From: Acidobacteria bacterium 13_2_20CM_2_57_6 | GTDB lineage: Bacteria; Acidobacteriota; Terriglobia; Acidiferrales; UBA7541 | Length of the DNA: 64,000 nucleotides | Assembly (NCBI GenBank): GCA_001917435.1 | Contig: MNEA01000133.1 | Span: 1 to 64,000 of the forward strand | Direction: 5' to 3' | Part shown: positions 9,837-31,980 of the stretch, one piece after another | How the letters are laid out: every line of letters starts with the position of its first letter | Numbering within the stretch: position 1 is the stretch's first letter | Made by a program: the position numbers and the translations under genes | Notes under the pieces: model-generated | What the model was told of the DNA's origin: nothing | Seen by the model: the letters and a program-made list of their open reading frames with translations, nothing else | Database searches by the model: none

Positions 9837-9864
9837 GGCCTTCTCCTTATCCCGGCTCTCGCTT

Positions 9865-14011: not shown

Positions 14012-14071
14012 TGTGTTTTCGTGGAGCGGGCCCGCAGTCCGGCTGTTTTACCAGCAAGCCGGAAAAACACT

Positions 14072-14548
14072 TTACCTTGCGGTAGCGACGGGTTCCGCGG
14101 CCTCCTCGAGTCGTTTGAACTCCGGGCGATGCAACAGTTTGGAAATGTCCAGCAGAATAATGAGGCGTCCCTTCAATTTGCCGACGCCTGTGACGTATCC
14201 GGATTCGCCTTCCGCAAAGACGCTGCCCGGGGCTTCGATCTCGGAGGGCGGAATCTTCAGGACCTCCGAAGCCGCGTTGACGATGAGTCCGACCAGCTTG
14301 TTGTTCAGCTCGACGACGAGGATACGATTCCTCTTGTCGTTCTGAATCTCGGTCTGGCCGAACCGCTTGCGAAGGTCCATGACGGGAATGATTTTCCCGC
14401 GGAGGTTGATGACACCTTCGATCAGATCGGGAGCGCTGGGGACCGAAGTAATCTCCGGTACACGCACAATCTCTCGCACAGCAGCAATGCGAACACCGTA
14501 CGTTTCATTGCCAATGCGAAAACCGACGACTTGAAGATCTTTTTCCAT
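14072..14548 (-). CDS. cheW: CheW coupling protein (operon 1)
   Basis: 158 residues, a single CheW domain: VGFRIGNETYGVRIAAVREIV, SAPDLIEGVINLRGKIIPVMDLRKRFG, then RILVVELNNKLVGLIVNAASEVL and a C-terminal GRLIILLDISKLL. Links MCP to CheA. Located 18 bases after the MCP gene, the common partner order. Confidence 0.95.
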   Translation of the reverse strand: MEKDLQVVGFRIGNETYGVRIAAVREIVRVPEITSVPSAPDLIEGVINLRGKIIPVMDLRKRFGQTEIQNDKRNRILVVELNNKLVGLIVNAASEVLKIPPSEIEAPGSVFAEGESGYVTGVGKLKGRLIILLDISKLLHRPEFKRLEEAAEPVATAR

Positions 14549-14566
14549 CGAGAGGTCTCCGGCCCT

Positions 14567-16582
14567 CTAGGAACGAACCAGTTCGGCGTACTCCGATTCT
14601 TGCGAACGGTCCGATTCCGCACCACGACGCTTGCCGCCGTACGATTCGCCGCGGCGCGGGCGCTGCTGGTTGGCCCGGTCGAGGACAAAACGGTCCATGC
14701 TGTCGAGTAAATTGCGCGAGAGCTTGAGCATCTGTTCGGCGGCCGCAGAAAGTTCCGTTGAACTGGAAGCCGATTGCTGCACGAGTTCGCGCATTTTGTC
14801 CATGGCGCGAACAACAGCCTGCGCCCCGGAAGCCTGTTCTTCCACGGCGGAATTGATTTCCTGAGTAATTTCTGTGAGGCGGCTGGTGGCTTTGGCGATC
14901 TGTGAAGAGCCAACCGATTGCTCGTTAGTGGCAGCGCCGATTTCCTGAGAGAACTTGTAGACTTCGGTGACCACGTTGGAAATCTTGTGCAGCGCGGAGC
15001 CCAGGTCGTTGCCGAGAGTGAGACCTTCCTCGACGATGCGCGTGCTGCGCTCCATGTTTTCGACGGCCTGCCGAGCTTCGCGCTGGATGCTTTGAATCAG
15101 GTCGGCAATTTCCTTGGTGGACTGCGTGGACTTTTCAGCAAGTTTGCGAACCTCGTCGGCGACGACGGCAAAGCCAAGGCCGTGTTCACCGGCGCGGGCC
15201 GCCTCGATGGCCGCGTTGAGTGCGAGCAGGTTCGTCTGCTCAGCCAAGTCATCGATGACTTCAATGATCTTTCCGATGTCATCGGCGCGATGACCGAGGA
15301 TGTTGATGATTTCCGCAGAGGACTGAATGGCCTGGTTGGTGCGGTTTAGGCCATCGGTGGCCTTTTCCATGGTCTGAATGCCAGTGACCACTTCCTCACG
15401 CGAGCGGTTGGCGATATCGAGCAAAACCTTTGCGGTATCGGCGACGCGCTGAATGGAAGTGACCATCTGGTCGATAGAAGCGGAGGTCTCCGCTACGCTG
15501 GAAGCCTGAACTTGCGTGTTCTTCACGACGTTTTGCACGTTGATGCTCATCTCGTGCATCGTGCTGGTGACTTCTTCAATCGCGGACGAGGCCTGAACAC
15601 TGACCTTGGCGGATTCGTCGGCTGCGCCAGCAACTTGATTGGAACCGGCGGAAACCTGGCCGGCGGAATCGCGAGTGGTGCGAACAAGTTCCTGCAACCC
15701 GTGGGACATGCGCAGAAAAGCGTTGCCCAGGGTGTCGCGTTTCGAACGCGGAACGACTTCCACGGTCAAGTCGCCTTCGGCAACGGCCATGGAAACACTG
15801 GCCATTTCTTTCAAATAGGCCACCATATTGTTGAAAGTAGTAGCCAAAGCGCCGATTTCGTCGTTGCGGTGAATATCGATGTTCTGATCGAGGTCGCCCG
15901 AATCGCCGATTTCGCGAGCGACGGTGATGAGATGCGTCAAAGGTTCGGTGATGGACTTGGCGGTCCAGACGGCGACAAATCCTCCGGCGACAAGGGCGAG
16001 CAAGGTTCCACCGATGGTCACGAAAGCGCTGACAGCACTCGCGGTGTTCGCCGACTTGGTGGTTTGATCGAGAAACTTGGTGATATCGGCATTGCTTTGA
16101 TCCAGAACGACAGAAGACTTCGTCAGCCAGGACGAAGGATCTTTCTGGAGATAAAAAATCTGGAGGTCGGAGACGGTAGCGTCGCCGGAATCGACCTGAT
16201 GGCGCTTGGCAATGAGCGGCTTGGCAAAATTGTCCGCCCAACTGGCTTCGGTGCTTTCCACCTGGATGAGCGCGGTGCGGACCACTTCATTGCCTGCTTG
16301 CGACTCGCCGCGCTTGACGAGGTCGGAAATGTCCGTAAGCCCTTTGTTCACTTTCTCTTCATCGCGAGGATCGCCGCTGAGCAGGAAGTTGTTCATGTTG
16401 AGGCGATTCAGCATGATTTGATAGCGCACGGACTCGACAGTGCGCACGCTCTCAAGGGCCATACTTGCGTCCGTCCGCGCGGATTTCTCCTTGAAACCCG
16501 CGAAGATGTTCACGAGGAACAGCAGGACCAGGACGCCAAGAATCAGGCCGAAACCGGCGTAAAGCTTTTTTCCGATCGTCAT
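14567..16582 (-). CDS. Methyl-accepting chemotaxis protein with periplasmic four-helix sensor (operon 1)
   Basis: 671 residues from the ATG at 16582 (GGAGG nine bases upstream; an in-frame ATG at 16618 is less likely). First membrane helix at about residues 8-28, a helical periplasmic sensor of about 160 residues like 4HB_MCP, a second membrane helix (TIGGTLLALVAGGFVAVWTA), HAMP (TVAREIGDSGDLDQNI), and a cytoplasmic signalling coil with the conserved hairpin tip [19 protein letters not shown] and [13 protein letters not shown]. No C-terminal CheR-docking pentapeptide is seen. The sensed ligand is unknown. Confidence 0.93.
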   Translation of the reverse strand: MTIGKKLYAGFGLILGVLVLLFLVNIFAGFKEKSARTDASMALESVRTVESVRYQIMLNRLNMNNFLLSGDPRDEEKVNKGLTDISDLVKRGESQAGNEVVRTALIQVESTEASWADNFAKPLIAKRHQVDSGDATVSDLQIFYLQKDPSSWLTKSSVVLDQSNADITKFLDQTTKSANTASAVSAFVTIGGTLLALVAGGFVAVWTAKSITEPLTHLITVAREIGDSGDLDQNIDIHRNDEIGALATTFNNMVAYLKEMASVSMAVAEGDLTVEVVPRSKRDTLGNAFLRMSHGLQELVRTTRDSAGQVSAGSNQVAGAADESAKVSVQASSAIEEVTSTMHEMSINVQNVVKNTQVQASSVAETSASIDQMVTSIQRVADTAKVLLDIANRSREEVVTGIQTMEKATDGLNRTNQAIQSSAEIINILGHRADDIGKIIEVIDDLAEQTNLLALNAAIEAARAGEHGLGFAVVADEVRKLAEKSTQSTKEIADLIQSIQREARQAVENMERSTRIVEEGLTLGNDLGSALHKISNVVTEVYKFSQEIGAATNEQSVGSSQIAKATSRLTEITQEINSAVEEQASGAQAVVRAMDKMRELVQQSASSSTELSAAAEQMLKLSRNLLDSMDRFVLDRANQQRPRRGESYGGKRRGAESDRSQESEYAELVRS

Positions 16583-16663
16583 TGCAAAATGCCTCCGCTC
16601 ACCTCGGCAGGACAGCATGAAGATGGCCGCTTCTGCCTGAACAACCGTTCTGCAACTGATGCC

Positions 16664-17189: not shown

Positions 17190-17357
17190 GTCTCAGGTAG
17201 GCTTGGTGCTGCCGACTATGGTCTCAGCCTGAGACGGGAAGAGATTGGGAAGCACAACAGCTGTAGGCGATTTCGCCACACGACGTGGCCCGGCAATTGA
17301 CTCACATTGAGACTCCCCGGTAGGGTTGGGGAGGAGCAACGCCTCCCAATTTGAGAC
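17190..17357. promoter_or_regulatory. Operator cluster between operon 1 and the kinase/NtrC operon
   Basis: The core is a perfect palindrome GTCTCA-GCC-TGAGAC (17221-17235). Extra half-sites of the same hexamer are GTCTCA at 17190-17195 and TGAGAC at 17309-17314 and 17352-17357. The position suits activation of the minus-strand promoter at 17055-17070 and possible autoregulation of the plus-strand kinase operon. Predicted to bind the NtrC-type protein encoded at 20129-21547. Confidence 0.55.
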
Positions 17358-17415
17358 GCGCGGCGCTTCCCCTTTGTCAATGCGCAGAATAAAGACAAGA
17401 GAATCGCGACATTCC

Positions 17416-19737
17416 ATGCCCCGGCGTGGAGGCGTGGATCCATCACCGACAACATCGAAGCACGCAGTAGAATTGATGGAACTGGCCGTTGAGGCCGCGC
17501 AGTCGCGGCATCTGCCTGATTTTCTGGAACAGTTTGCCCTCCGCGCGACGCGAATGCTGGACGCGATGTGGGGCGGCGTGGCAGTTTACCGTGGACGCGA
17601 AACGGAACTTCACGCGATGCGTGGCGGAGCTTCAACAGCGGAAGCGGCCGCAAACTGGATCATTTCGCGCGCGCAGGACAGCCAGAACGATGTGGAAACG
17701 CGCGCGATCCCCAAGGAAACTTCAGAAGAGTTGGCACTTCCGGAAAAGCCCGGAGCGGTCGTGTTTGTCAGGATCGCGGCGAGCGACAACGAGAGGCTGG
17801 GAACGCTGTGCTTGCTCCGGAAACGAAAGACCCTAGGCGAAGGGGAGAAACGCTTGCTGCATGCGCTGGCGAGCCATGCGGCGCTGTCCCTGGAGAATTT
17901 CCGGCGATTCTCGCAACTGGAGCGTTCGAAACGGCAATGGGTCGAAGACATCGATGCGATCAGCGACTACATTGTGGTGCACGATCGGGCGTGGAATATC
18001 GTTCGAACGAACCGATCGCTTGCCTCGCACCTTGGCGTGCCGCCCGTAGCCTTAGTCGGCGAAGCCATGAGCAGCTTGAGGCAAATTGCGGAAACGGGGA
18101 GCGATCTGCCATGCCCGTTCTGCCGGGATACCGATCGCGCGAAGGAAGAGTACGTGGCGGCATCGGCGGAGCGTATTTTTCTTGTTTCGACGTCCCGAAC
18201 GCCAGGCGCGGCTGACGACGATACACGCACGATCCACGTATTGAAGGACATTACCGACCGGCGAGAAGCGGAACGGCGGTATCGCGAGCTTTTTGACAGC
18301 ATACAGGAAGGGTTGTTTTTCGCGACGCCGGACGGCAGATTCCTGGACGTGAATGATGCGATGGTGCGCATGTTGGGGTACGCCTCGCGTGAGGAATTGC
18401 TGCGCGCGGACGTGAGCCCGCATCTGTATCCTGTGCCGGAGGCGCGTGAAAAATTCCTGCGCGCGCTTTCAGAACGGGGCGTGTTGCGCAATTACGAAGA
18501 AACGCTGCGGCGCAAAGACGGAACGCTTCTGCACACGCTGCAAAACATTACGGCAGTGCGCGACGCCCGCGGGCGGATCGCTCAGATTCGCGGACTGATG
18601 CTGGACGTTACGGAGCAGAAGACGTTTCAATCGCAATTGCAACGGGAACGCGACTTCAATCAGAAGATTCTGAATACAACGCAGAGCATGATTCTGGTGC
18701 TCGATACGGCGGGGCTGATCAGTTACGCGAACCGGCGCTGCTATGAAGCAGGCTATCAGGAAGGCGAGTTGATTGGGCACCGGCTGGTGGACTGGGTGGA
18801 GGCTTCACATCGGGAAGATTTCGACGCGGCGCTGGAAACGACGGCGCACGGGCATCAGGTGGAGAACCTGGAGCTGCGTGTTCGGCGAAGCGACGGATCG
18901 ATGGGACATTTTTCGATCAGCTTGAGCCCGATGCGAGATGAGCAGAACGCAGTGAACAGCGTCGTGGTGGTGATGACGGACATTACCGACGCGGCGCTGC
19001 TCCAAGCAAAACTGGCTCACAGCGAAAAAATGGCTACCATTGGGCGACTAGTATCCGGCGTGGCGCATGAAGTGAATAACCCGCTGGCGGCGATTCTCGG
19101 TTTCACGGATCTGCTACTGGAGAATCCTGAAGTACCTGGATCGGCGCGGGAAGATTTGCAGATTATTTTGCAGGAGACGCAAAGAACGAAAGACATCGTA
19201 CAGGACTTGCTGAGCTTCGCGCGGCAGAGGCCGGTGCAGCGGGAACTCGTGCAGGTGAACAGCGTTTTGCGCCAAACGATCAAACTGCGGAGTTATGATT
19301 TCGCGAGCCATGGCGTTGAAGTGGTGGAGGATTTTGAAGAAGCCCTAGCGGCGGCGTTGGGCGACTCACAGCAACTGCAGCAGGTTTTTCTGAATATCCT
19401 CAATAATGCGTACGATGCGGTGCAGGAAGCGGGACAGCGCGGGCGCATCAGGATTCACACCAGGCGGCAAGCGGAGATGATCGAAGTGGCGATCAGCGAC
19501 AACGGAACCGGCATTACGGATCCCCATCGCATATTTGACCCCTTTTATACGACCAAGCAAGTGGGCAAAGGGACGGGGCTGGGGCTGAGTATTTGCTACG
19601 GGATCGTGCGAGCACATGGCGGGGAAATTCAATGCTGGAACAATGAAGCGGGAGCAGGGAGCACTTTTGTGGTGCGGATTCCCGTGGCGACGGAGGCGGC
19701 GCTTGCAGCCGCGGCGACGAAAGAAGCTGGGCGATGA
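17416..19737 (+). CDS. GAF/PAS sensor histidine kinase
   Basis: 773 residues if started at the ATG at 17416; ATG 17380 is an alternative and neither has a clear ribosome-binding site. Domains: GAF-like (about 15-165), PAS (about 180-280, containing a CPFC pair), PAS (about 290-405), PAS (about 425-540), then HisKA with His551 in VSGVAHEVNNPLAAILGF and HATPase (NAYDAVQE; SDNGTGI; FDPFYTTK; GTGLGLSICYGIV). No membrane helix, so cytoplasmic. NtrB-like kinase core. The stop overlaps the next receiver gene (ATGA); the NtrC-type regulator follows, so the three form a phosphorelay unit. Confidence 0.93.
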   Translation: MPRRGGVDPSPTTSKHAVELMELAVEAAQSRHLPDFLEQFALRATRMLDAMWGGVAVYRGRETELHAMRGGASTAEAAANWIISRAQDSQNDVETRAIPKETSEELALPEKPGAVVFVRIAASDNERLGTLCLLRKRKTLGEGEKRLLHALASHAALSLENFRRFSQLERSKRQWVEDIDAISDYIVVHDRAWNIVRTNRSLASHLGVPPVALVGEAMSSLRQIAETGSDLPCPFCRDTDRAKEEYVAASAERIFLVSTSRTPGAADDDTRTIHVLKDITDRREAERRYRELFDSIQEGLFFATPDGRFLDVNDAMVRMLGYASREELLRADVSPHLYPVPEAREKFLRALSERGVLRNYEETLRRKDGTLLHTLQNITAVRDARGRIAQIRGLMLDVTEQKTFQSQLQRERDFNQKILNTTQSMILVLDTAGLISYANRRCYEAGYQEGELIGHRLVDWVEASHREDFDAALETTAHGHQVENLELRVRRSDGSMGHFSISLSPMRDEQNAVNSVVVVMTDITDAALLQAKLAHSEKMATIGRLVSGVAHEVNNPLAAILGFTDLLLENPEVPGSAREDLQIILQETQRTKDIVQDLLSFARQRPVQRELVQVNSVLRQTIKLRSYDFASHGVEVVEDFEEALAAALGDSQQLQQVFLNILNNAYDAVQEAGQRGRIRIHTRRQAEMIEVAISDNGTGITDPHRIFDPFYTTKQVGKGTGLGLSICYGIVRAHGGEIQCWNNEAGAGSTFVVRIPVATEAALAAAATKEAGR

Positions 19738-20132
19738 AGGCGCAACAGGCATTGTGGACGGGCGGGCCGATCCTGCTCATTGAAGATGAACCCTCCGTCA
19801 CCGCCTTTCTGCGGGCGGCGTTGGAGCGCAAGGGATACGCAGTGGTGAACGCATCGTCGGGCGCGGAAGGATTGCAGCGGCTTTCGAACGGGCGTTACGC
19901 GGGCGTAATCTCCGACATTCGAATGCCCGGAGCGGTAAATGGGGCGGAAGTACACGGATGGATTCAAAAGAACCGCCCCGAATTGAAGGCGCGAATTATC
20001 TTAATCAGCGGTGACACGGCAAACAGCGATACGCAGACGTTCCTGGCGCAAAGCGGGACGCCGTGTATCGAAAAGCCCTTTCGGGTGCAGCAATTGATAT
20101 CAATGGTAGAGAAGACATTCGGGAAGCCATGA
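19734..20132 (+). CDS. Single-domain response regulator
   Basis: 132 residues, one receiver domain: acidic pair in LIEDEPS, acceptor Asp61 (GVISDIRMPG), Thr/Ser (LISGDT) and Lys (IEKPFR). It sits between the kinase and the NtrC-type gene with ATGA overlaps on both sides. Could be a phosphate sink or a second target of the kinase. Confidence 0.9.
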   Translation: MKAQQALWTGGPILLIEDEPSVTAFLRAALERKGYAVVNASSGAEGLQRLSNGRYAGVISDIRMPGAVNGAEVHGWIQKNRPELKARIILISGDTANSDTQTFLAQSGTPCIEKPFRVQQLISMVEKTFGKP

Positions 20133-21547
20133 GCGACGAGATGAAAACACGACTATTGGTAGTGGACGACGAGCAAAGCATTCGCCGTCTGTGCATGACG
20201 ATTGGCAACACTTTGGGTTATGTCTGCGCGGAGGCGGAAAGCGCGGAGGCGGCGCTGGCACGGCTGGACACGGATACTCCGGATTTACTGCTCACGGACC
20301 TGAAGCTGCCAAATATGTCCGGGGTGGAGTTGCTGAAGCAGACAAAACAACTTTTGCCGCATACCGAAGTCGCGATTATGACCGGCCACGGCTCAATCGA
20401 ATCCGCGGTTGATGCTATGAAGCTGGGGGCATACGACTACATCGAGAAGCCGTTTCGAGTGGAAAAAATGCGGCTATTGCTGCAGCGCATGGCCGAAAAG
20501 GTGCGGCTGGTCACAGAAAACGAGTTTCTGCGCGAGCGGGTTACAACGGAAGAAAATCTCGATGGGATCATCGGCAGTTCCGCGAACATCCAGGACGTTC
20601 TCCGAATGATTTCCCGGCTGAAAGATACCCGGACACCGGTGCTGATCTCCGGCGAGAGCGGGACAGGAAAAGAACTTGCGGCCCGCGCGATTCACTTCCG
20701 GGGAACCATGGCAAAGACGCCATTCGTGGCCGTGGATTGCGGTTCGTTGGTGCCGACGCTGATGGAGAGCGAACTATTTGGGTATGAAAAGGGGGCTTTT
20801 ACCGGCGCGACGAAGTCGAAAGCCGGTCTCTTCCAATCAGCGGATGGAGGCACGATTTTCCTTGACGAGATCGGGGAGTTGCCGCTGGAAATGCAAGCGA
20901 AATTACTCCGTGTCTTGCAGGAGAAAGAAGTGCGGCCGGTCGGCAGCAACGAGAAGGTCAACGTCGATGTTCGCGTGATCGCGGCCACGAATCGCGATTT
21001 GGAAGCGGCTTATCGCTCCGGAACGTTCCGTAAGGACTTGTATTTTCGATTGAATGTGGTGACCGTGCACCTCCCTCCCTTGCGTGAGCGCCGTTCGGAC
21101 ATACCCGTTTTGGTTCATCATTTTCTGGATCGCTACGCGAAAGGTTCGCATATTCAAGTTACGGCGGCGGCGATGAAGAGCCTGCTGCACTATGAATGGC
21201 CAGGGAACGTCCGCGAACTGGAAAATTGCATCGCGCGAGCAGTGACGCTGGGAGATGGGAAAGTCATAGACGTTGCCGATCTCCCGCCGGCCATCCGGAG
21301 CGAACAGGCAGGTTCTGGGATCGTGCCGTCCCAAGACACCTCCAATTTGTCCACTACGGCGCTGGCAGAGATGGAGCGAATGACGATACTTCGTGTCTTT
21401 GAGCAAGCGAACGGAGACAAAGCACTGGCGGGAAAGATGCTCGGAATCAGCCGCGCAACGCTGTATCGAAAACTGAAGCGCTACAACATCGCGTTAAAAG
21501 TGGGTTCAGCAAGCGGCAGAGCCGAGCCGGAAGCTGCTCCCCAATAG
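20129..21547 (+). CDS. NtrC-family sigma54-dependent response regulator
   Basis: 472 residues from the ATG at 20129, which overlaps the receiver stop. Receiver (LVVDDEQS, acceptor Asp57 in LLLTDLKLPN, Lys in IEKPFR), AAA+ domain with Walker A GESGTGKE, the sigma54-contacting GAFTGA loop, Walker B GTIFLDEIGE, the sensor region VRVIAATNRDLE and R-finger area FRKDLYFRLNVV, then a Fis-type helix-turn-helix (ALAGKMLGISRATLYRKLKRYNI). All parts needed for sigma54 activation are intact. Known role of the family: binds enhancers 80-200 bp upstream of -24/-12 promoters. Palindromes and matching promoters are present at three places around it. Confidence 0.96.
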   Translation: MSDEMKTRLLVVDDEQSIRRLCMTIGNTLGYVCAEAESAEAALARLDTDTPDLLLTDLKLPNMSGVELLKQTKQLLPHTEVAIMTGHGSIESAVDAMKLGAYDYIEKPFRVEKMRLLLQRMAEKVRLVTENEFLRERVTTEENLDGIIGSSANIQDVLRMISRLKDTRTPVLISGESGTGKELAARAIHFRGTMAKTPFVAVDCGSLVPTLMESELFGYEKGAFTGATKSKAGLFQSADGGTIFLDEIGELPLEMQAKLLRVLQEKEVRPVGSNEKVNVDVRVIAATNRDLEAAYRSGTFRKDLYFRLNVVTVHLPPLRERRSDIPVLVHHFLDRYAKGSHIQVTAAAMKSLLHYEWPGNVRELENCIARAVTLGDGKVIDVADLPPAIRSEQAGSGIVPSQDTSNLSTTALAEMERMTILRVFEQANGDKALAGKMLGISRATLYRKLKRYNIALKVGSASGRAEPEAAPQ

Positions 21548-21551
21548 TCAG

Positions 21552-21626
21552 TGAAACGTCTCAAACCAGTTCCTCTGGGACTCGCCGCACGTGACGCGGT
21601 GAGACGGAAACGTTTCACGCTGAGAC
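21552..21626. promoter_or_regulatory. Operator cluster upstream of the PilZ-like unit
   Basis: Contains TGAAAC-GTCTCA (21552-21563), TGAGAC (21600-21605), the perfect decamer GAAACGTTTC (21607-21616) and, overlapping it, GTTTCA-CGC-TGAGAC (21612-21626), which matches the operators at 17221 and 24335. The centre of the last site is about 90 bp before the predicted -24 element at 21710. It starts directly after the NtrC-type gene stop. Confidence 0.55.
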
Positions 21627-21707
21627 GAGTGAGCCAACAAGACGCGTCGCGAAAATCGTAAGGCTTGCTATTTCTGCAAGTTGCAACACTCCCACGTTTT
21701 TAGTCCT

Positions 21708-21724
21708 TTGGCGTTCAGCGTGCA
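21708..21724 (+). promoter_or_regulatory. Sigma54-like -24/-12 promoter of the PilZ-like unit
   Basis: TTGGCGTTCAGCGTGCA. GG at 21710-21711, GC at 21722-21723, ten bases between. It shares TGGC-N6-CGTGC with the two other predicted promoters. Start of transcription would be near 21734, about 60 bases before the PilZ-like ATG. Confidence 0.5.
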
Positions 21725-21793
21725 TCTCTGTCAGCGGAAGTCTACGTCTCACGCGGCGAGTAGTGTGCCTTGCCACGAGAGATGGAGTGCCAT

Positions 21794-22171
21794 ATGACCG
21801 GCACGGCGAGGGGAGACGTGCGAGAATCCGGCAACCTGGCGCTTGCGGCGAATGGGCAAGATTGCGCGGAGCAGTTAGCAAGGTTTTTCCCGCATGCACG
21901 CCCCGTGCGAATTCCAGTGCAAGTAATCGCACTGCGCGGAGGCAGAAGTAGTCTTCGCGAAGCCGCGGTCGTGGAATATGGGGGCCCAGAGCACGCCATT
22001 TTCGTGTCGACCTTGCCGTTGGAGTTCGACGATCGCGTGCAAATCGAGGCAACTGGTGAAGGACGGCCGGCGGAGGCAACCGTTGTCGGCTTGCAATATC
22101 ACGAAGAACGAAAAGCAGTGGCCGTCCGATTCTTGCAAGGCCCCTGCAACTGGGTGGTGACACAGCCGTGA
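21794..22171 (+). CDS. Degenerate PilZ-like protein
   Basis: 125 residues from the ATG at 21794 (GGAG six bases upstream). The central segment ARPVRIPVQVIALRG followed by beta-strand patterns (DDRVQIEATG; ATVVGLQYHEERKAVAVRF) resembles the PilZ barrel. The c-di-GMP motifs are incomplete: one Arg-x-x-Arg and no clear D/N-x-S-x-x-G, so binding of c-di-GMP is doubtful. First gene of a three-gene unit; its stop overlaps the next start by four bases (GTGA). Confidence 0.6.
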   Translation: MTGTARGDVRESGNLALAANGQDCAEQLARFFPHARPVRIPVQVIALRGGRSSLREAAVVEYGGPEHAIFVSTLPLEFDDRVQIEATGEGRPAEATVVGLQYHEERKAVAVRFLQGPCNWVVTQP

Positions 22172-23646
22172 CCAAGACGACTACGCTGAATATCCCGGCT
22201 CCGGCTCGATCGGAAAGCCCACGGCAGGCGCAATGGAAAGAAGCCCGGGCGGTATTCCCGATCTATCTGGCGCTCGCGAAGCAGCTCGAAATCGAAATCC
22301 CTTTTCCCCAAGCGAAGCGCAACCTTCCCGAGAAACCGGACCTAGAAACCTTCAGCCAAGTGCACGAATGGCTGGATTCGATGGACCAGCGTGTGTTGGT
22401 ACATCAACTTCGCCATCTACTGCAGATGACCACGCTGAACGCCAGCGAAACAGGCCTGCGCGCGCTGATCCAACGGCACCTTCGGAAGACGAAGAAGAGC
22501 AGCGTTGACCGGGACAAGATCGACTTTCTGTTGGTGCAGTACTTTGCGCTGTGCGCGCCCGCGAAAATCTACCACAAACAGATTGAGCCAATCGATGTTG
22601 CGCACGTCATGGAGCCAGTGCTGGGAGGAGTGGACCCGGCGCCGCTGGCGTGGTGCGCGCCGCTGGAGCAGATGATCGAATCATTGAAGACCCTCCGCAG
22701 CCTGCGAGAGATTCTAAAAACAAACTTCATCGAACAAGGCCGCAAGGTGAAAGAAACCGCCGGAGGGATGTTTTACGATCCCGCGGCGCTGGTGGCCTTC
22801 ATCCGGTTTAACTTTCTCCTCCGCCGAACGCTGATTGAGCTAATGCATGCGGACTTGATCGCCATCCGCGCTGGACTCAGCCAGTTGCAATCCGCCGGTG
22901 TACGTACCATCGACTGTCACAATTTCGGCCTTTCGGCGTCGGAAGCGCTGACGAAAATCTCTGCCGTTGCCGAAGAGTGGAAACAGCCTTTCCAGAAAGA
23001 GTACACGGAAAGGTCAGTCAGCCAGGCTTTCGACAAGCTGCTTGGGCTGCGCGCGGACGTAGAGCAAGCTTTGGAAAAGGCACTCGGAAAAGCGGGCGAA
23101 GCTGCAATCCAACAAGGACCGGCTCAAGCAGCAAAATCCCTGCCGGCTAATAAGAAAGCCCCCTCGGGGCCCGCGGCTTCCAAAGTCAACGCGAAAACAA
23201 AGGAGCGTTCAGCGCCTGCTGCCACGGAGCCAGATTCAGTTGTGGCGCTGGATTTCGAAAACTGCATGGAGCAGATCTGGGAACAACTAATCGCGACTCC
23301 CCCCACGCGTGGAAGGTCGATGACCACCGTCAAGATCGGCGGAGCGCGCATTCTGTTGTCCTCCTGGGAAGTAACGGCATTCGTAAGCGAAGACGGGCCG
23401 TCCGCCGAAGATTTGCGGCGCGCCGTTGTAGCCCGTGTCCTGGTGAGCGCCGCAATGGAATCCGCTAAGGAAACGGGTAACGCCACATCGCTCGATCGAG
23501 CGATGAACATGGCGCGAGTAGAAGTCACTCGCCTGCAGGAGCGCGTGGATGTAGCCAAACAAGCGAAGGACACCGAGGCAGCAGTAAACCTAGGAATCAG
23601 TACGAAACGTCTGCTCTCAACGCTGGACGAAGCAGAAAAACTGTAG
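22168..23646 (+). CDS. Unrecognised 492-residue protein of the chemosensory locus
   Basis: Starts at GTG overlapping the PilZ-like stop. I do not recognise the family. What is seen: no signal peptide or membrane helix; a largely helical N-terminal two-thirds (for example the segment around residues 65-110 and RSLREILKTNFIEQGRKVKE); a low-complexity Ala/Lys/Pro linker at about 310-355 (QQGPAQAAKSLPANKKAPS); and a C-terminal domain of about 130 residues with a strand-like RSMTTVKIGGARILLSSWEV followed by long helices ending in TRLQERVDVAKQAKDTEAAVN. Probably a cytoplasmic two-domain protein. Its place suggests a role tied to the phosphorelay or the chemosensory arrays. Confidence 0.8.
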   Translation: MTKTTTLNIPAPARSESPRQAQWKEARAVFPIYLALAKQLEIEIPFPQAKRNLPEKPDLETFSQVHEWLDSMDQRVLVHQLRHLLQMTTLNASETGLRALIQRHLRKTKKSSVDRDKIDFLLVQYFALCAPAKIYHKQIEPIDVAHVMEPVLGGVDPAPLAWCAPLEQMIESLKTLRSLREILKTNFIEQGRKVKETAGGMFYDPAALVAFIRFNFLLRRTLIELMHADLIAIRAGLSQLQSAGVRTIDCHNFGLSASEALTKISAVAEEWKQPFQKEYTERSVSQAFDKLLGLRADVEQALEKALGKAGEAAIQQGPAQAAKSLPANKKAPSGPAASKVNAKTKERSAPAATEPDSVVALDFENCMEQIWEQLIATPPTRGRSMTTVKIGGARILLSSWEVTAFVSEDGPSAEDLRRAVVARVLVSAAMESAKETGNATSLDRAMNMARVEVTRLQERVDVAKQAKDTEAAVNLGISTKRLLSTLDEAEKL

Positions 23647-23702: not shown

Positions 23703-24386
23703 TTGCGACACGCCAACGTAGTCATCCTGACTGATGATAGTGAATTTGCCCGGCTGCTGACAGCCTGCTGGCAAGCCGAACGCCAGGCTCCAAACATTGC
23801 TGTGCTCAATAGCGACTCATGGCATGAACCGAATGCGCCGGCCCACGACCTTGTCGTTGTTGGGCCCGTGCGCGAGGGGAAAATTACCAGCGTGTTGCAG
23901 TCGCTCGAACCGGCAACCGTAGTGCTTCTGTGTATTCCGGCCGATTCCCAGGAATTTGGGCAATTGCGCGCCCAGTACCCAAGGCTACTGCACATCCCTC
24001 TGCGCGAAGATTGGGCTCAAACCCTTCTGCTCGTCGCCGGTGAATCTTTGCGTCGGGCAAAGGCTCTGCAGATCGCGCGGCAGGCAGAGCGAAATGCAGC
24101 CAAGAACGAGAACCACGCCACACTTGGACGCTACATGCTGGAGATGAGGCATAGCGTCAATAATGCCCTGACTTCCGTACTCGGGAATGCTGAATTGCTC
24201 CTTTTGGAACCCGGGCAGCTTTCTGCGCAGTCGCTTGCACAGATAAAAACCATGCACAGCATGGCGCTGCGAATCAACGAGGTAATGCAGCGTTTCTCAT
24301 CACTTGCCAGCGAGATGCAGGAAGCTGAGAATGCATCTCAAGCTGAGACGGAAGAGACCGCTGCGTCATCCCCACGGCGCCTCTGA
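23703..24386 (+). CDS. Pseudo-receiver plus orphan H-box (DHp-like) protein
   Basis: 227 residues from a TTG start (GGGGAG ten bases upstream); the receiver-like beta1 (NVVILTDDSEF) begins at residue 5, so the start cannot be much later. The N-terminal domain looks like a receiver but the acceptor position reads LVVVGPV (Gly instead of Asp) and the Lys motif is lost. Residues 139-200 match a histidine-kinase dimerisation helix pair: LGRYMLEMRHSVNNALTSVL with His150 and Asn154, similar to NtrB-type H-boxes. No ATPase domain follows. It could be a phosphotransfer protein fed by the kinase or CheA, or a scaffold. Its 3' end carries the operator at 24335-24349. Confidence 0.72.
   Translation: MRHANVVILTDDSEFARLLTACWQAERQAPNIAVLNSDSWHEPNAPAHDLVVVGPVREGKITSVLQSLEPATVVLLCIPADSQEFGQLRAQYPRLLHIPLREDWAQTLLLVAGESLRRAKALQIARQAERNAAKNENHATLGRYMLEMRHSVNNALTSVLGNAELLLLEPGQLSAQSLAQIKTMHSMALRINEVMQRFSSLASEMQEAENASQAETEETAASSPRRL
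24335..24349. promoter_or_regulatory. Operator upstream of chemosensory operon 2
   Basis: ATCTCA-AGC-TGAGAC, one mismatch from the perfect palindrome at 17221-17235. It lies inside the last codons of the H-box protein gene and is centred about 127 bp upstream of the -24 element at 24469, a normal enhancer distance. Confidence 0.5.
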
Positions 24387-24466
24387 GCCCACTCTCAAAC
24401 TGCTGTAACCTGCTCATTTAATGGCACTTGCCACAATACGACACAAGGATACGCGGAACGCAAAAG

Positions 24467-24483
24467 CTGGCTGCTGACGTGCA
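24467..24483 (+). promoter_or_regulatory. Sigma54-like -24/-12 promoter of chemosensory operon 2
   Basis: CTGGCTGCTGACGTGCA. GG at 24469-24470 and GC at 24481-24482 with ten bases between. Same TGGC-N6-CGTGC frame as the promoters at 17054-17070 and 21708-21724. Transcription would begin near 24494, 27 bases before the receiver GTG at 24521. Confidence 0.5.
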
Positions 24484-24520
24484 CCTCTACTCTGTGGACG
24501 AGTATGGGGAGAGCACGGCT

Positions 24521-24883
24521 GTGCACAAAAAAGTCCTGATCGTTGACGACTCGCCTGCTGAAGTCAAACTGATGCAAGGCTTGCTGGAAAGAGAAGGCTA
24601 TTGGCCGATTGCATTGCACGACCCCAGGCTCGTCGAGGAAACCATTACCAACGACCGGCCGAGTGTAATTCTGCTGGACATCGTTATGCCGGGGCGAAAT
24701 GGCTATCAAGTGTGCCGCGATTTGAAAGGAAACGCCGAGTTCAATTCGATCCCGGTGATTATGGTGACGTCGAAAGACTCCGCCAGTGACAAGTTTTGGG
24801 GCCAGCAGCAAGGCGCGGACGGCTACGTGACGAAGCCTTTCACGCGCGAAGACCTGCTTCGCGCGGTGCGGCGGTTCGCATGA
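24521..24883 (+). CDS. CheY/PilH-like response regulator, first gene of operon 2
   Basis: 120 residues from the GTG at 24521 (GGGGAGAG upstream); the receiver fold starts at once with KKVLIVDDSPAE. Acceptor Asp53 (VILLDIVMPGRNGY), Thr in IMVTSKD and Lys in VTKPFTRED. Closest in look to the PilH/PixH type of receivers. An upstream in-frame GTG at 24494 is possible but would add residues unlike the family. Confidence 0.88.
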   Translation: MHKKVLIVDDSPAEVKLMQGLLEREGYWPIALHDPRLVEETITNDRPSVILLDIVMPGRNGYQVCRDLKGNAEFNSIPVIMVTSKDSASDKFWGQQQGADGYVTKPFTREDLLRAVRRFA

Positions 24884-24908: not shown

Positions 24909-25436
24909 ATGAGCGAAGACTTTCATCTCGAACCTCTTCCGGCAGACGCCGATACCGGCGATTTGCTCGAAGCTCTTGGACCGATCGACGAGCGGCCGCC
25001 CGAATCACAATATTGTGTCTTCCGCAGCGGGCGCGAGCGATTCTGCCTTCCGGTTCTGGACGTCGAAGAGGTGCTGGATTGGCCCTTGCTGACACGGCTT
25101 CCGCTGGGCCCGCCATATCTAGTCGGAATCTTCAATTTGCGCGGCGCCATTGTGCCGTTGATAGACATTGCCATTACGGAAGGCCGCCGTCCCGGATTGC
25201 TGCCCAAGCACGTGGTGGTCGCTTCCCTTCGCAGCGAGAGCCATCATGAGGACGTTCGGATCGGCATCGCCGCCGACGAAGTCATTGGAACTTATTCGGT
25301 GAACACCGAGGATTTGCTCGAGCAAGCGCCGGAAAACGTGCCGCATTGTATCGGAATGTTGCGGCATGACGACCGCTTGGCGCTGGTGATCGATTTGCGC
25401 CGGCTGCTCGAGGTTTTTCCGGGGCCAAGCATTTGA
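24909..25436 (+). CDS. CheW-like coupling protein with N-terminal extension (operon 2)
   Basis: 175 residues. About 30 acidic residues precede a CheW domain: [56 protein letters not shown], and a final [17 protein letters not shown]. Located 25 bases after the receiver and before the MCP, the usual coupling-protein position. One of three CheW genes in this operon. Confidence 0.92.
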
Positions 25437-25497
25437 GATTTGTGGAGACAGCGCCGATGGAAGGCGCGGGCTCCGCGGAAGAGATTTGGAGGGTGGC

Positions 25498-26928
25498 ATG
25501 AAATCGCGATTGAGTTCCACAATCTGGACGCTGGTCCTGCTGAACGGCGTGGTCGGTTTCGCCGTTCTAGGACTGGCATTCACCGCCGGTAAAAAAGCCG
25601 GTGAAGCGTCCCTGTTTGACTTCGGCTCGCCGGCCGGAGGAACGGTGCTGCTGGCCATTGTGCTGGCGCTGCTGACAGCGGTCATCCTGGCATGGCGCTT
25701 CGGTGCGTTGCTGGGACCGGTACAGGCCCTCGCCGAATTCTCCGAACGGTTGGCGGCAGGCGATCCCCGGGCACGCGCAGAAGTCACTTCGAACGATGAG
25801 TTGGGCTACATCGCAGAAAACCTGAATCGCGCGGTTGCCAAGGTGTCCAAGGCAACGAGCAACCAGGACGCGAATGACGCGTTGCAACGTAGCATCACCG
25901 AATTGCTGAGTGTCATCAACCAGGTGGCGCGTGGCGACTTGTCGCAGCGCGGGAAGGTAACCAGCGACGCCCTGGGAAACGTGACGGATTCGATCAACTA
26001 CATGCTCGACAATTTCACCAAGGTTCTCGAGCGCGTCCGCAAAGCTGCCATGGAAGTGACCGCATGCTCCAACAACATTCTGGTGGCCGCCGATGAAATG
26101 CAGGCGGGAGCAACGCAGCAAGACCAGGAAATTACGAATACCTCGAGCGCCGTCGAAGAACTGACGGTCTCCATGAAACAGGTTTCGAACAACGCGGAAG
26201 CGAGCGCCGAAGCAGCACGCCGGGCGCTGGATGCCGCCGAACAGGGCAACCGTGCGGTGCGCGACACACTCGAAGGCATGCAGCGCATTCGCGCATCGGT
26301 GCAGGCGACCGCCAAGAAGATCAAGTCACTGGGCGACCGCTCATTGGAAATTTCGGAAATCATCAACGTAATTAACGACATCACGGAACAGACGAACCTG
26401 CTGGCGTTGAACGCGGCCATCGAAGCGGCACGCGCCGGCGAAGCAGGGCGCGGCTTTGCGGTCGTTGCCGACGAAGTCCGCAAGCTGGCCGAGCACAGCC
26501 GCAGCGCGACGAAAGATATCGCCGCGCTCATCAAAGCAATTCAGGCAGAGACGAACGAAGCCGTAGTCGTCATGGAAGAAGGCACTAAGGAAGTGGAAGG
26601 CGGCGCACAGCTTGCCGATCAGGCGGGGCGCGCGCTGGACGCCATTTCCAACGTGGTACGCCAATCGGCGGAACTCGTCCAGGAAATCTCGCTGGCGTCG
26701 AAACAGCAGGTGCGCGGAACGGAAGGTGTCGCGCACGCCATGCAGATTATTTCCAGCATTACGCGGCAGACGTCGCAAGGAACACGCGGGACGGTGGCAA
26801 CGGTAAGCCAGCTCGTCAAGCTGTCCGACCAATTGAACGAAGCCCTGGCGCAATTCCGCGCGTCATCCAAAGCGGGAGCCGCAAACGACAATTCCGAGCG
26901 GCCTGTCCCGGCAGGCGCTGTTCGTTAA
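25498..26928 (+). CDS. Methyl-accepting chemotaxis protein with almost no periplasmic domain (operon 2)
   Basis: 476 residues from the ATG at 25498 (GGAGG just upstream). Two membrane helices (about 7-28 and 47-67) are separated by only about 20 residues, so no large extracellular sensor exists. A HAMP-like segment ([19 protein letters not shown]) and a second HAMP-like repeat ([21 protein letters not shown]) precede a signalling domain with tip [21 protein letters not shown] and [14 protein letters not shown]. It resembles PilJ-like receptors, which sense via the membrane or partner proteins. Confidence 0.92.
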
Positions 26929-26991: not shown

Positions 26992-27876
26992 ATGAGCGAA
27001 CGGCAGGGACACGGGCAGGGACTGAGCGAACACGAGCTGAGCGAAATTCGCATGTTGATCGAAGAGCGAACGGGAATTTGCTTCGATGAATCGCGAGAGC
27101 GCTTCTTCTCCACGCGTGTGCGTGAACACCTCCGCGCAAAGGGTATGGAGCGCGGTACGGAACTGCTGCGCGCCATGCGCAAATCCAACGTGGAATACGA
27201 GGGACTGCTCGAGCGGCTACTGACGCAGGAGACGAGTTTCTTCCGCTATCCTGCCGTTTATGAGGCCTTCGAGAAGCGCGCACTGCCCGAACTCCACGCA
27301 AAAAAGTTCTGGAACAATCCTCGCACACTGAGGATTTGGAGCGCCGGCTGCTCGACCGGCGAAGAGCCCTATTCCATCGCCATTACGATCGCAGATTCGC
27401 TATCATTCGCGGACGCCTGGAACGTGGAACTCCTGGCGACCGATGTGGGACGTCATGCTCTGAAGCACGCCGAGCGCGGCATTTACAAGGGCCGTAGCAT
27501 CGCCAGCGTGAGCGAGAAACAACTGGCAAACCATTTTTCGGAAGTTAGCGGCGGGCACCAGGTGAAACCGCGTCTGCGCAAGATGGTTTCGTTTGCGCAG
27601 ATGAATCTTGCTTCAGCAGTGTACGTCGGCCGTATGGACATGATTTTTTGCATGAACGTGCTGATTTACTTCTCGGAAGAACGTCGTCGGTCCCTGGTGC
27701 AAAGATTCTACGACACGCTCGAACCGGGCGGATATCTCTTCCTTGGGCATTCGGAGTCGATCTCAAAGATGCCGGTGAAATTCCAGGCCATCGTTTTAAA
27801 CGATTGCATTCTCTACCGGAAGCCGACTGCGGACGAATTGCAAAAGCCGGAACTCGTTGCGGAGGGACGAGCGTGA
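26992..27876 (+). CDS. cheR: CheR MCP methyltransferase (operon 2)
   Basis: 294 residues. N-terminal LSEHELSEIRMLIEERTGI, methyltransferase LRIWSAGCSTGEEPYSIAI, ELLATDVGRHAL and MDMIFCMNVLIYFSEERR, matching CheR. Its stop overlaps the cheA2 GTG by four bases. Presumably methylates the MCP encoded just upstream. Confidence 0.95.
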   Translation: MSERQGHGQGLSEHELSEIRMLIEERTGICFDESRERFFSTRVREHLRAKGMERGTELLRAMRKSNVEYEGLLERLLTQETSFFRYPAVYEAFEKRALPELHAKKFWNNPRTLRIWSAGCSTGEEPYSIAITIADSLSFADAWNVELLATDVGRHALKHAERGIYKGRSIASVSEKQLANHFSEVSGGHQVKPRLRKMVSFAQMNLASAVYVGRMDMIFCMNVLIYFSEERRRSLVQRFYDTLEPGGYLFLGHSESISKMPVKFQAIVLNDCILYRKPTADELQKPELVAEGRA

Positions 27877-30848
27877 GTACGCTGGACCGCGAAGCCGTCG
27901 AGATGTTCCTCCAGGAGGCCTCGGAGAACCTGCAATATCTGCGGGAATACGTCAGCGTGCTCCAGGACGTTGAACCGCGGCGGGAAGATCTCGAACGACT
28001 CTACATTTCGGCGCATACGCTGAGTGGAACGTCGGCAAGCTATGGGTTTCCGCGATTTTCTGAAATTGCCGGGAAACTCGCGCATGTTTTTCAGTATGCG
28101 TTGAACGCGCCCCTGGGCAGCGATCTGCATGGGCCATTGACGGAGTTCCTCTCGGACGGAATTTCGTTGCTGGAAACAGATCTTCTGGAAATCAGCGACA
28201 CGGGTAAGGAAAATGTCGATGACATCGCTGTTTTCAAGGACCGTTATCGCTTTGCGTTTCCACCGGAAACGCCACCGCTGAATCTTTCCCAGGCGGAACC
28301 CAGTGAACAGCTTGCTGCGGAAGAAATCGAGGAGCCCATTGTCGCTGCGCCGACCGGCTCTTATTTCGATGCGCTGCCGTTGGACGAGGAAGTCCCGGAC
28401 GAAATCCTTGAATTTTTCCAGCCAGAAGCAGAAGAGCATCTACAAGTTGTCAGCGACTGCCTGATTTCGCTCGAAGGAAATAACAATCCGGAAGAGATCA
28501 ACAAACTCTTTCGCGCCATTCACACCGTAAAGGGTTCGGCCGCGCAAGTCGGGCTGAGGAGGCTGGGAGCGATTGCGCACCGCGTCGAGGATTTGATTGG
28601 GCGCTTGCGCGATGGCGAAATTGAGCCTTCGCCTGCCGTCGTGGATTTGTGCCTTGAGTCGGTAGACGTTTTGAAGAAGACGCTCCATCGGCAATGGACC
28701 GACGAAGCCGACATGCGGACTGGTGTGGACTCCTTGCTCGGCCGCATTGCGGAGTTTGCTCCTCTGGAACCGGAGGAAGCGGGGATGTCAGCGGAATCGC
28801 CTAACGCCGCTGAAGCCCAGCATGCGAAAGAAATTGAAGCGACCGGCGCGTCGGTCAAGAAAGCCTCGAAACAACCTGCGGGCGGCCCTTCGACCGTCAA
28901 ATCGGTTCGCATTGCCCTAGCCCGGCTCGACCGCATGATGAATACGGTCGGTGAATTGGTGATCAACCGCACGCGCATGGTCGGCCGCGTCGCCGAGCTT
29001 GAAAAGCTAGTCGACACGCTGAGCTTCTCGAAAGAGCGGCTGCAGGGCAAAGTATCCGAATTCCAGGAAAAGTACGAATTCAATCGCATCAGCAATAGTC
29101 GCGGCGCCCAAGCACCGTGGAATCCCGAACCGACGCCGCAAATGCTGACCAGCGCTGCTGCGGGGGACAAGTCGTTCTGGTCTGACTTCAGCGAACTGGA
29201 AATGGACCGCTACGACGATTTCAATATCTTGTCACGGTCCATGGCCGAGATCTCAGCCGACGTCAACGAAGTACTGTCCCAACTGGAAGGGTTTATCGGC
29301 CGAGTCGAAGGCGATATCGACGAATTTACGAAACTGGCGCATCACCTCCAAGATGAGATTACCGCGGCCCGAATGGTCCCGATCGGCACGCTGTATTCCC
29401 ACCTGTCACGCGCTGTCCGCGATGCAGCGACTTCGACCGGTAAGCACGTGGAGTTGGATCTTTCCGGGAGTGAGACCGAGATCGACAATAACATCATTCA
29501 GCAGATTTCCGATCCGCTTGTGCATCTGGTGCGAAATTCAGTGGCGCACGGCATCGAGCAAAGCGCCGAGCGTACTGCGGCGGGCAAACCCGCCGCCGGG
29601 AACATCATGCTGCGCGCCTACCACCGCGGCAACCACATCTACATCGAAGTGGAAGATGACGGCGGGGGAATCAACTACGATCGCGTGAAGCAAAGCGCCA
29701 TCGAACGCGGGCTTGTTTCCGCGGAAACCGCCGACAGGCTCACGGAACGCGATCTTCGGGAAATGCTTTTCCATCCCGGTTTCTCAACTGCTCCAGTGAA
29801 AACAGAATTGGCTGGGCGTGGAGTCGGGCTAGACGTCGTGAGGGCCAACCTAAACGCGCTCAACGGAGAAATCGACATTCAGAGCACGAGCGGCAAGGGC
29901 ACCAAATTTACGCTCAAGGTGCCACTGACCTTGATCATTTCTCCAGCTCTGTTTGTGCGCTGTGGCACAACCAATTTCGCGCTGCCGCTGGCGGTCGTTG
30001 AGGAAATCCGGCGCCTACGTGCGGATGAAATAGAAGACGTCGGCGGAAAACTGCTGACCAAGGTGCGCGATGTGGTTACCGAAGTCGTGCGTTTGGATAC
30101 CTATCTTGGATTGTCGCCTCTCGAACCGATCAATGGCTACTTCCGCATGGTTGTGGCAAATGCCGGAAACCGGAAGATCGGCCTCGTCGTTGAAGAAGTT
30201 GTGGGCAAAGACGAAATCGTTATCAAGAATCTGGGCGAGTACTTGCGCAGGGTAAAACTCTTCCCCGGCACAACGATCGCGCCCGACGGCAGCCTCATTC
30301 TGTTGATTGACCTGAACCGCATGGTAGCGACGGAACCGGGCGAGCACCGGCAGATACAGGCGAGTGCCAGCGCCGCCCGAATCTTTGCTCCAGGTTCGGC
30401 TGCGATTGCAAGCGGAAGTATTCCTTCCGAAGCCATCGACCGCGTTGCACAAGAACGGGTAATCGTCGTGGCCGACGACTCCATCAGCGTACGCAAATTC
30501 GTCGGCCGCATGCTGGAGAAGAACGGATACCGTGTGAAATTGGCCGCCGACGGATTGGAAGCCGCGGAGCTAGTGACGCAACACGGCTGTCACCTCGTCA
30601 TTACCGACCTCGAAATGCCCCGGATGACGGGATACGAGCTGATGGTGCAATTGCGCCAGAGCCCCTCGACGCGCCGCATTCCCGTTATGGTGGTTACGTC
30701 GCGCGCGGGTGCAAAACATCGCGATCGCGCGATGAAGGAAGGCGCCACGGCATTCCTGACCAAGCCGGTGCAGGAGGATCAGCTGATTGCCGCGGTCGAA
30801 CAGCTTATCGGAACGGAGGCGCCCAGGCCCGTAGCGCCGGTAGCGTAA
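27873..30848 (+). CDS. cheA: Hybrid CheA kinase with two HPt domains and a C-terminal receiver (operon 2)
   Basis: 991 residues from the GTG at 27873 (GTGA overlap with cheR). HPt-like domain 1 with His48 (SAHTLSGTSASYGF), HPt domain 2 with His217 (RAIHTVKGSAAQVGL), dimerisation (VGELVINRTRMVGRV), a long coiled insert with a DDFNILSRSMAEI segment, HATPase (LVRNSVAHGIE; DDGGGINYDRV; GRGVGLDVVRA; SGKGTKFTLK), CheW domain, then receiver (VVADDSISV; acceptor in VITDLEMPRMTG; TKPVQED). The layout is like ChpA/PixL/FrzE kinases of twitching or gliding systems. HPt1 lacks the usual Lys after His-Thr-x, so its activity is less sure. Confidence 0.95.
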   Translation: MSTLDREAVEMFLQEASENLQYLREYVSVLQDVEPRREDLERLYISAHTLSGTSASYGFPRFSEIAGKLAHVFQYALNAPLGSDLHGPLTEFLSDGISLLETDLLEISDTGKENVDDIAVFKDRYRFAFPPETPPLNLSQAEPSEQLAAEEIEEPIVAAPTGSYFDALPLDEEVPDEILEFFQPEAEEHLQVVSDCLISLEGNNNPEEINKLFRAIHTVKGSAAQVGLRRLGAIAHRVEDLIGRLRDGEIEPSPAVVDLCLESVDVLKKTLHRQWTDEADMRTGVDSLLGRIAEFAPLEPEEAGMSAESPNAAEAQHAKEIEATGASVKKASKQPAGGPSTVKSVRIALARLDRMMNTVGELVINRTRMVGRVAELEKLVDTLSFSKERLQGKVSEFQEKYEFNRISNSRGAQAPWNPEPTPQMLTSAAAGDKSFWSDFSELEMDRYDDFNILSRSMAEISADVNEVLSQLEGFIGRVEGDIDEFTKLAHHLQDEITAARMVPIGTLYSHLSRAVRDAATSTGKHVELDLSGSETEIDNNIIQQISDPLVHLVRNSVAHGIEQSAERTAAGKPAAGNIMLRAYHRGNHIYIEVEDDGGGINYDRVKQSAIERGLVSAETADRLTERDLREMLFHPGFSTAPVKTELAGRGVGLDVVRANLNALNGEIDIQSTSGKGTKFTLKVPLTLIISPALFVRCGTTNFALPLAVVEEIRRLRADEIEDVGGKLLTKVRDVVTEVVRLDTYLGLSPLEPINGYFRMVVANAGNRKIGLVVEEVVGKDEIVIKNLGEYLRRVKLFPGTTIAPDGSLILLIDLNRMVATEPGEHRQIQASASAARIFAPGSAAIASGSIPSEAIDRVAQERVIVVADDSISVRKFVGRMLEKNGYRVKLAADGLEAAELVTQHGCHLVITDLEMPRMTGYELMVQLRQSPSTRRIPVMVVTSRAGAKHRDRAMKEGATAFLTKPVQEDQLIAAVEQLIGTEAPRPVAPVA

Positions 30849-30855
30849 ACAAACG

Positions 30856-31980
30856 ATGGCAACTGTCAACAAAAAGTTTCGCGTTCTCGTCGTGGATGAT
30901 TCTTCATTCATGCGCAAGGTCCTTGAAGGGATTTTCAACGCCGACGAGCAACTGCAGGTCGTGGGCAACGCCAAGGACGGCCGAGAGGCCGTTGCAATGG
31001 CGGAATCCTTGAAGCCGGACGTCATCACCATGGACATCAATATGCCTCATGTGGACGGACTCCAGGCTACTGCGGAGATCATGACCACGAATCCAAAGCC
31101 GATCGTCATCGTCAGCTCGGAATCACGTGAAGGAGCAGCCAGCACCCTTCGCGCCCTCGAACTCGGCGCAATTGAATTTGTGGCCAAGCCATCCAGTGCC
31201 ATCGATCTCGACATGCAGAGCGTGAAGGAAGAGCTCCTGCGCAAGGTACGAATGGCAGCTAAGGTCCGCGTCGTGCGAACGGCTTCGCGTCTGGCGCTAT
31301 CAATCCAGAATGCGAACGGCCCCAAGACTTCGACGCCCTCGCCGGCGAGTGTCCGCCAAGCGCCAACTTCCGGAATCGATCAGCGCTTTCCGGTAGTCGT
31401 GCTTGCGGCGTCCACCGGCGGACCAGCTACCGTAATGCGCATTGCGCCTGGATTTACCGCGGACTTCCCTGCCGCTGTAATTCTTGTACAGCACATGCCG
31501 GCAACGTTCACAACGCAATATGCCGCGCAGCTCGCTGACTTCACTGGCATTCGAGTGAAGGAAGCGGAAGCCAATGAATCTCTTCAGCCGGGCACACTGT
31601 ACATCTGTCCCGGTGGTCAGCATCTTCGGGTTACTCCCACGGGCCGAATCCAGCTTGACGGAGCAAGCGGGCGCATCGCCGGATACTTGCCAAATATCGA
31701 CGTCACGATGGAATCCGTTGCGGCCTTTGCCGGTCCATTGGGCATCGCGGGAATACTCACCGGAATGGGCAACGATGGCGCAAATGGAGCAAAGGCCATC
31801 AAGGCAGCGGGCGGTCTGGTGTTGGCCCAGGACGAGGCAACATCCGTGATTTTCGGCATGCCTGCCGAGGCCATTAAAGTCGGTGCCGTTGATCAGGTGC
31901 TCGGAATCGACGATATTTATGCCGCCATCGAAAAGCGCGTTCTGGGAATTTGCCCCACGGCTCCCGCAGGAGTTCGCTGA
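30856..31980 (+). CDS. cheB: CheB protein-glutamate methylesterase (operon 2)
   Basis: 374 residues. Receiver with VVDDSSFM and acceptor Asp60 (VITMDINMP); catalytic Ser in LAASTGGPATVM, His in LVQHMPATFT and Asp in TGMGNDGANG. Removes methyl groups from the operon 2 MCP. The stop TGA overlaps the next ATG by one base. Confidence 0.95.
   Translation: MATVNKKFRVLVVDDSSFMRKVLEGIFNADEQLQVVGNAKDGREAVAMAESLKPDVITMDINMPHVDGLQATAEIMTTNPKPIVIVSSESREGAASTLRALELGAIEFVAKPSSAIDLDMQSVKEELLRKVRMAAKVRVVRTASRLALSIQNANGPKTSTPSPASVRQAPTSGIDQRFPVVVLAASTGGPATVMRIAPGFTADFPAAVILVQHMPATFTTQYAAQLADFTGIRVKEAEANESLQPGTLYICPGGQHLRVTPTGRIQLDGASGRIAGYLPNIDVTMESVAAFAGPLGIAGILTGMGNDGANGAKAIKAAGGLVLAQDEATSVIFGMPAEAIKVGAVDQVLGIDDIYAAIEKRVLGICPTAPAGVR

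Follow-up and report, generated by a model that had tools for sequence, protein, structure and literature searches.

The gene at 22168–23646 of the window (the whole 64,000-nucleotide stretch of DNA analysed) encodes a two-domain protein of 492 residues that, as judged from its sequence, belongs to an undescribed family of Acidobacteriota, which are abundant soil bacteria. It is best read as a conserved but uncharacterised signalling part that related bacteria without the adjoining chemosensory cluster, che2, have retained. We tentatively propose, at somewhat less than an even chance, that it would be a soluble, non-enzymatic signalling adaptor of che2, a non-flagellar chemosensory pathway under sigma54/NtrC control. 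The locus comprises the following genes.

17326–19737, + strand: PAS/GAF-containing histidine kinase (HisKA and HATPase_c by Pfam), with synteny across the genus and beyond it in other families
19734–20132, + strand: single-domain response regulator (Pfam Response_reg)
20063–21547, + strand: NtrC-type sigma54 activator with receiver, AAA+, GAFTGA and HTH_8 (Pfam; GAFTG motif)
21770–22171, + strand: small conserved protein of 133 residues, called PilZ-like in the original prediction; PilZ membership unconfirmed
22168–23646, + strand: two-domain protein of 492 residues, the subject of this work (conservation, alignment, AlphaFold2)
23703–24386, + strand: HisKA-like helix pair with a degenerate receiver-like N terminus (Pfam HisKA at E 3e-4, below cut-off)
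24428–24883, + strand: CheY-like response regulator (Pfam)
24909–25436, + strand: CheW (Pfam)
25486–26928, + strand: MCP with HAMP (Pfam)
26992–27876, + strand: CheR (Pfam)
27648–30848, + strand: hybrid CheA2 with two Hpt matches, kinase core, CheW and receiver (Pfam; ORF bounds)
30856–31980, + strand: CheB (Pfam)
31950–32513, + strand: CheW (Pfam)
32510–32989, + strand: CheW (Pfam)
32986–33759, + strand: response regulator with DUF4388 (Pfam)
33756–34553, + strand: response regulator with a Pro-rich linker (Pfam; sequence)

The whole genus shares this gene order, and related families retain part of it, with block synteny in two bacterial families. An AAA+ sigma54 domain with GAFTGA, together with HTH_8, identifies the NtrC-type protein as an enhancer-binding activator, whose true start probably lies inside its ORF; homology in the CheA2 ORF begins near 27894, and the MCP sequence has a very short stretch between its two apparent membrane segments. 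No ATPase domain was found in the HisKA-like protein, a candidate phosphotransfer or phosphatase protein that is conserved even where che2 has been lost. Next to che2, on the opposite strand (8884–16618, − strand), lies another complete chemosensory cluster, che1 (CheX, CheY, CheB, CheA, CheR, CheW and MCP). A public record titled Betaproteobacteria (L022) contains this Acidobacteriota locus in full synteny, its copy of the protein being 70% identical, and is probably misnamed.

The ORF runs from a GTG start to a TAG stop, the GTG overlapping the TGA of the preceding 133-residue ORF by four bases; the identical overlap recurs in many loci of the genus and in loci of another family. Orthologues were present in all 36 genus genomes examined at 60–93% identity, one copy being a contig-edge fragment, and this conservation shows the ORF to be a real gene. 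The 492-residue reading frame and four-base overlap of the original prediction thus stand, the bounds being confirmed and the overlap kept in relatives. AlphaFold2, run with 32 genus sequences as input, gave a mean pLDDT of 77.6 for the whole protein and divided it into three parts.

22216–23106, + strand: N-terminal helical domain, residues 17–313 (AlphaFold2, modelled alone: pLDDT 88.5, pTM 0.84)
23107–23247, + strand: disordered Ala/Lys/Pro linker, about residues 314–360 (pLDDT below 50 at 310–359)
23248–23643, + strand: C-terminal domain (helix, beta-hairpin, long helices), residues 361–491 (AlphaFold2), missing in six genomes without che2

The N-domain is helical except for two short strands, with helices up to residue 313, so that the predicted helical protein with an Ala/Lys/Pro linker is recovered in the model. 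The predicted C-terminal alpha-beta domain does exist as a separate domain after the linker, but it consists mostly of helices with one beta-hairpin, and the label is loose.

The protein had no match in Pfam, NCBIfam, PADLOC or PHROGs, and a search of PDB sequences returned nothing significant, in agreement with the earlier statement that it matches nothing known. Fifteen family members gave no convincing Pfam or NCBIfam match, only scattered weak hits to single members, and there was one weak PHROG match among 15 homologues. The HMM and structure searches proposed earlier likewise led to no known family: Foldseek of the N-domain against the PDB had a best E of 0.93, the best VIA alignment was to a designed protein (Z 6.0, 136 residues, rmsd 5.1), and fold searches with the full model and the N-domain alone gave low-scoring helical matches only. 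The modelled N-domain fold is possibly new, although poor PDB matches do not prove a new fold. A phage or plasmid origin was rejected (no plasmid match, a single weak PHROG match), as was a defence system (no PADLOC match). In the parts of the literature that the search covered, on chemosensory, pilus and PilZ systems of Acidobacteria, the protein is undescribed.

Distant homologues share about 20–28% identity and mostly have both domains. The family occurs in at least 65 of 396 sampled Acidobacteriota genomes and at least 43 of 210 genera, these counts being lower bounds as four candidates per genome were scored. Across 15 members, 18 columns are invariant, among them the charged residues D114, R115, K117, D119, R192 and K195 of the helical N-domain. 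These residues, and the phosphorelay neighbours of the gene, would suit a protein that regulates the locus receivers as a phosphatase or by phosphotransfer, in the manner of CheZ, CheX or an Hpt protein; but the family-wide alignment has no invariant His, Pfam gave no match to CheC, CheX, CheZ or Hpt, and the che1 cluster has a CheX of its own, and we regard such a role as distinctly improbable.

Where inspected, the neighbours of wider-family members are unrelated genes, for example RecG, TruB/RbfA, acyl-CoA dehydrogenase and lipase maturation factor. Adjacency to such unrelated metabolic and informational genes would be expected of a general Acidobacteriota housekeeping protein that is found in this locus only incidentally. 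Against this, the locus-linked proteins form one separate clade (SH-aLRT 100%, stem 1.5; 100/99 in a second tree), they have a dedicated promoter, and their linkage is kept across two bacterial families, which makes a housekeeping role very unlikely. One additional member of the clade (L106, G314) is a copy that does not lie in a che locus. The tie to chemosensory loci drawn in the original prediction consequently applies to the orthologous clade, which is nearly always in the locus, but not to the family as a whole, most of whose inspected members have no chemosensory locus around them. Some Acidobacteriota carry the wider family in tandem or multiple copies, 2 to 5 in number (L065 9000–11756, G460, G466, G316, G387).

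The small neighbour had been called PilZ-like, and this we could not confirm. The window copy has no Pfam match; one of 30 orthologues matches Pfam PilZ, at E 0.19, and the c-di-GMP motifs RxxxR and D/NxSxxG are not conserved in the alignment of those 30. Compared with the nine PilZ domains of its own genome, the protein reached an hhalign probability of 3% (pairwise P 0.015), the weak match to the PilZ profile being collinear over 65 columns. Type IV-type PilZ proteins are small, PilZ-like and unable to bind c-di-GMP; the neighbour resembles them in its size and in lacking RxxxR and D/NxSxxG, and differs in that HMM and profile comparison do not establish its PilZ homology. The genome itself (4.5 Mb) has 42 PilZ-domain matches, 41 of them over cut-off, and the small protein is not among them.

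The promoter region was analysed by aligning the intergenic region between the NtrC-type gene and the small gene across 32 genus loci, which revealed the following elements.

21552–21564, unstranded: extra enhancer-like half sites TGAAACG / CGTCTCA, read from sequence; GTCTCA partly conserved
21600–21617, unstranded: enhancer (UAS) inverted repeat TGAGACG-N4-CGTTTCA, putative NtrC site; 85% mean identity in the genus
21621–21627, + strand: second UAS half site, TGAGACG, with a mean identity of 93% across the genus
21709–21724, + strand: sigma54 (−24/−12) promoter TGGCGTTCAGCGTGCA; GG-N10-GC in 32/32 aligned loci

The sigma54 promoter predicted earlier is upheld: GG-N10-GC occupies a fixed position in every aligned genus locus, and of the TGGC and TTGC-like boxes the last is GTGC rather than TTGC in the genus. 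It sits upstream of the small gene and not between that gene and the 492-residue gene. Mean identity in the flanking stretch 21550–21597 is 38%, as against the values for the inverted repeat and the half site. This orthologous alignment was used in place of a generic sigma54 consensus scan of the window, which at 3 mismatches was uninformative (606 hits against 587 expected); the promoter pattern alone was likewise close to background, with 69 hits compared with 57 in the control. The exact inverted repeat occurs once in the whole genome, and searching with it for further regulon members returned none. Because of this single occurrence, the upstream NtrC-type activator is probably dedicated to this promoter as a local regulator, presumably by binding the UAS.

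We compared partner genes at 19 loci of the locus-linked clade, of which 17 belong to genomes of other genera. The NtrC-type gene adjoins the gene for the 492-residue protein or lies within about 8 kb in 18 of these, whereas we detected no small gene in five (G306, G609, G632, G459, G451) and no HisKA-like gene in five (G306, G609, G459, G615, G451). In two loci in which the small gene was not detected, G632 and G459, the gene for the 492-residue protein is directly preceded by half sites of the UAS together with a sigma54-like match. Of the proposed co-translation with the PilZ-like gene, the overlap and the operon link in the window are supported, but they do not extend to the loci in which that gene was not detected. 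In G609 (L152 6627–9669), CheR and CheB follow the protein and no CheA2 was detected between them on the contig, which reflects either a deletion or an assembly fault; contamination of this genome is 6%.

Seven genomes have no CheA2 orthologue (G138, G572, G580, G586, G591, G628, G638), and the same seven have no che2 block in the 19–20 kb inspected, yet they retain the orthologue of the 492-residue protein, the small gene and the HisKA-like gene. Of the two genes suggested originally for profiling, the NtrC-type gene is the more constant companion; cheA2 is outlived by the protein in these genomes. The protein therefore fits better the description of a constant companion to the NtrC/sigma54 switch than that of a component integral to chemosensing. 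In six of the seven it is 315–417 residues long and its C-domain is missing; G572 keeps the C-domain despite having no che2. Pairwise dN/dS for the N-domain form was 0.11–0.23 in five pairs, drawn from five of the six genomes without the C-domain, indicating purifying selection. The loss of che2 is one change on the tree and so is the loss of the C-domain; the correlation between them therefore rests on one event. Since the C-domain is also present in family members outside chemosensory loci, and in G572 without che2, it is not specific to che2 by origin. Conversely, che2 occurs without the protein at least in G486 and probably also in G650, where no homologue was found at the locus; the G642 and G553 loci are cut by contig ends and are uninformative for this association. 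In loci lacking che2 (L109 11420–12523, L154 11229, L157 11129), the HisKA-like gene is followed by a CheR-like gene whose product is 30–43% identical to CheR2.

These patterns bear on whether the protein forms part of the che2 array, as a structural or a coupling element. Its place in the che2 operon, with strict synteny in most lineages, is what such a component would show; but purifying selection without che2 in one clade, the presence of che2 without the gene in G486, and the lack of any similarity found to CheW or other array parts make this quite unlikely. We favour the adaptor because selection keeps the N-domain in every lineage, while the C-domain was lost with che2, and we read it as non-enzymatic because no enzyme family matches.

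In the mechanism that we propose, the upstream kinase, response regulator and NtrC-type activator would switch on the dedicated sigma54 promoter, and the small protein and the adaptor would be made first, the che2 proteins after. The N-terminal helical domain would be the essential core that binds other signalling proteins, among them possibly the small neighbour and, where present, the HisKA-like protein; the C-domain, on its flexible linker, would couple the adaptor to the che2 complex, and the output would be type IV pili or another non-flagellar one. Binding of the activator to its enhancer, all contacts between proteins, the role as an adaptor and the nature of the output are inferred. 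Historically, and with chances that we judge to be somewhat less than even, a branch of the Acidobacteriota-wide family, possibly of a new helical fold, may have been recruited as the direct target of an NtrC/sigma54 switch with a single promoter and as a detachable link from that switch to che2, and may have shed its C-domain after che2 was lost and kept working. The locus offers a defined regulator, enhancer and promoter together with an undescribed protein family, in which the role of the protein is testable by single deletions, and the natural genomes that have the protein without che2 already separate it from the chemosensory genes.

As to output, of the 56 genomes of the class that have CheA2, 6 yielded FliG, against 162 of the 243 that lack CheA2; related genomes in this class-wide table are not independent and we claim no significance for it, and a P of 0.0005 comes from 25 hand-picked genomes. 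We rejected a flagellar output for che2 on this distribution, and because FliG is rare in CheA2 genomes, che2 is mostly non-flagellar. PilT-family matches were found in 25 of 25 genomes checked, 24 over the curated cut-off, but the locus genes that we examined include none for a pilus; that che2 acts on type IV pili is plausible but unproven. On another account, the protein would itself be an output effector, acting with its small neighbour on surface machinery, for instance the type IV pilus, and only tuned by che2. Retention of the protein after che2 loss, and the PilT-family genes of che2 genomes that mostly lack FliG, fit that account, but the examined locus has no pilus gene, the small protein is unconfirmed as PilZ and undetected in five of 19 loci, and six genomes have FliG and CheA2 together; we consider it unlikely.

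With the adaptor reading in place, che2 can be set beside known systems. Like Frz, Pil-Chp and other ACF or type-IV-pili classes, its MCP has little periplasmic domain, its CheA is a hybrid with Hpt domains and a receiver, it has several CheW, CheR, CheB and extra response regulators, and it occurs mostly in genomes without FliG. We found no description of non-flagellar chemosensory systems of Acidobacteriota in the portions of the literature covered by our search. Unlike those systems, che2 is preceded by a promoter of the sigma54/NtrC type, and the head of its operon encodes an undescribed two-domain protein. The locus also resembles NtrC-family operons with a dedicated enhancer, in having a kinase, a receiver, an AAA+ GAFTGA activator, a UAS and a −24/−12 promoter, and differs from them in that the exact enhancer occurs once in the genome, so that its regulator looks local.
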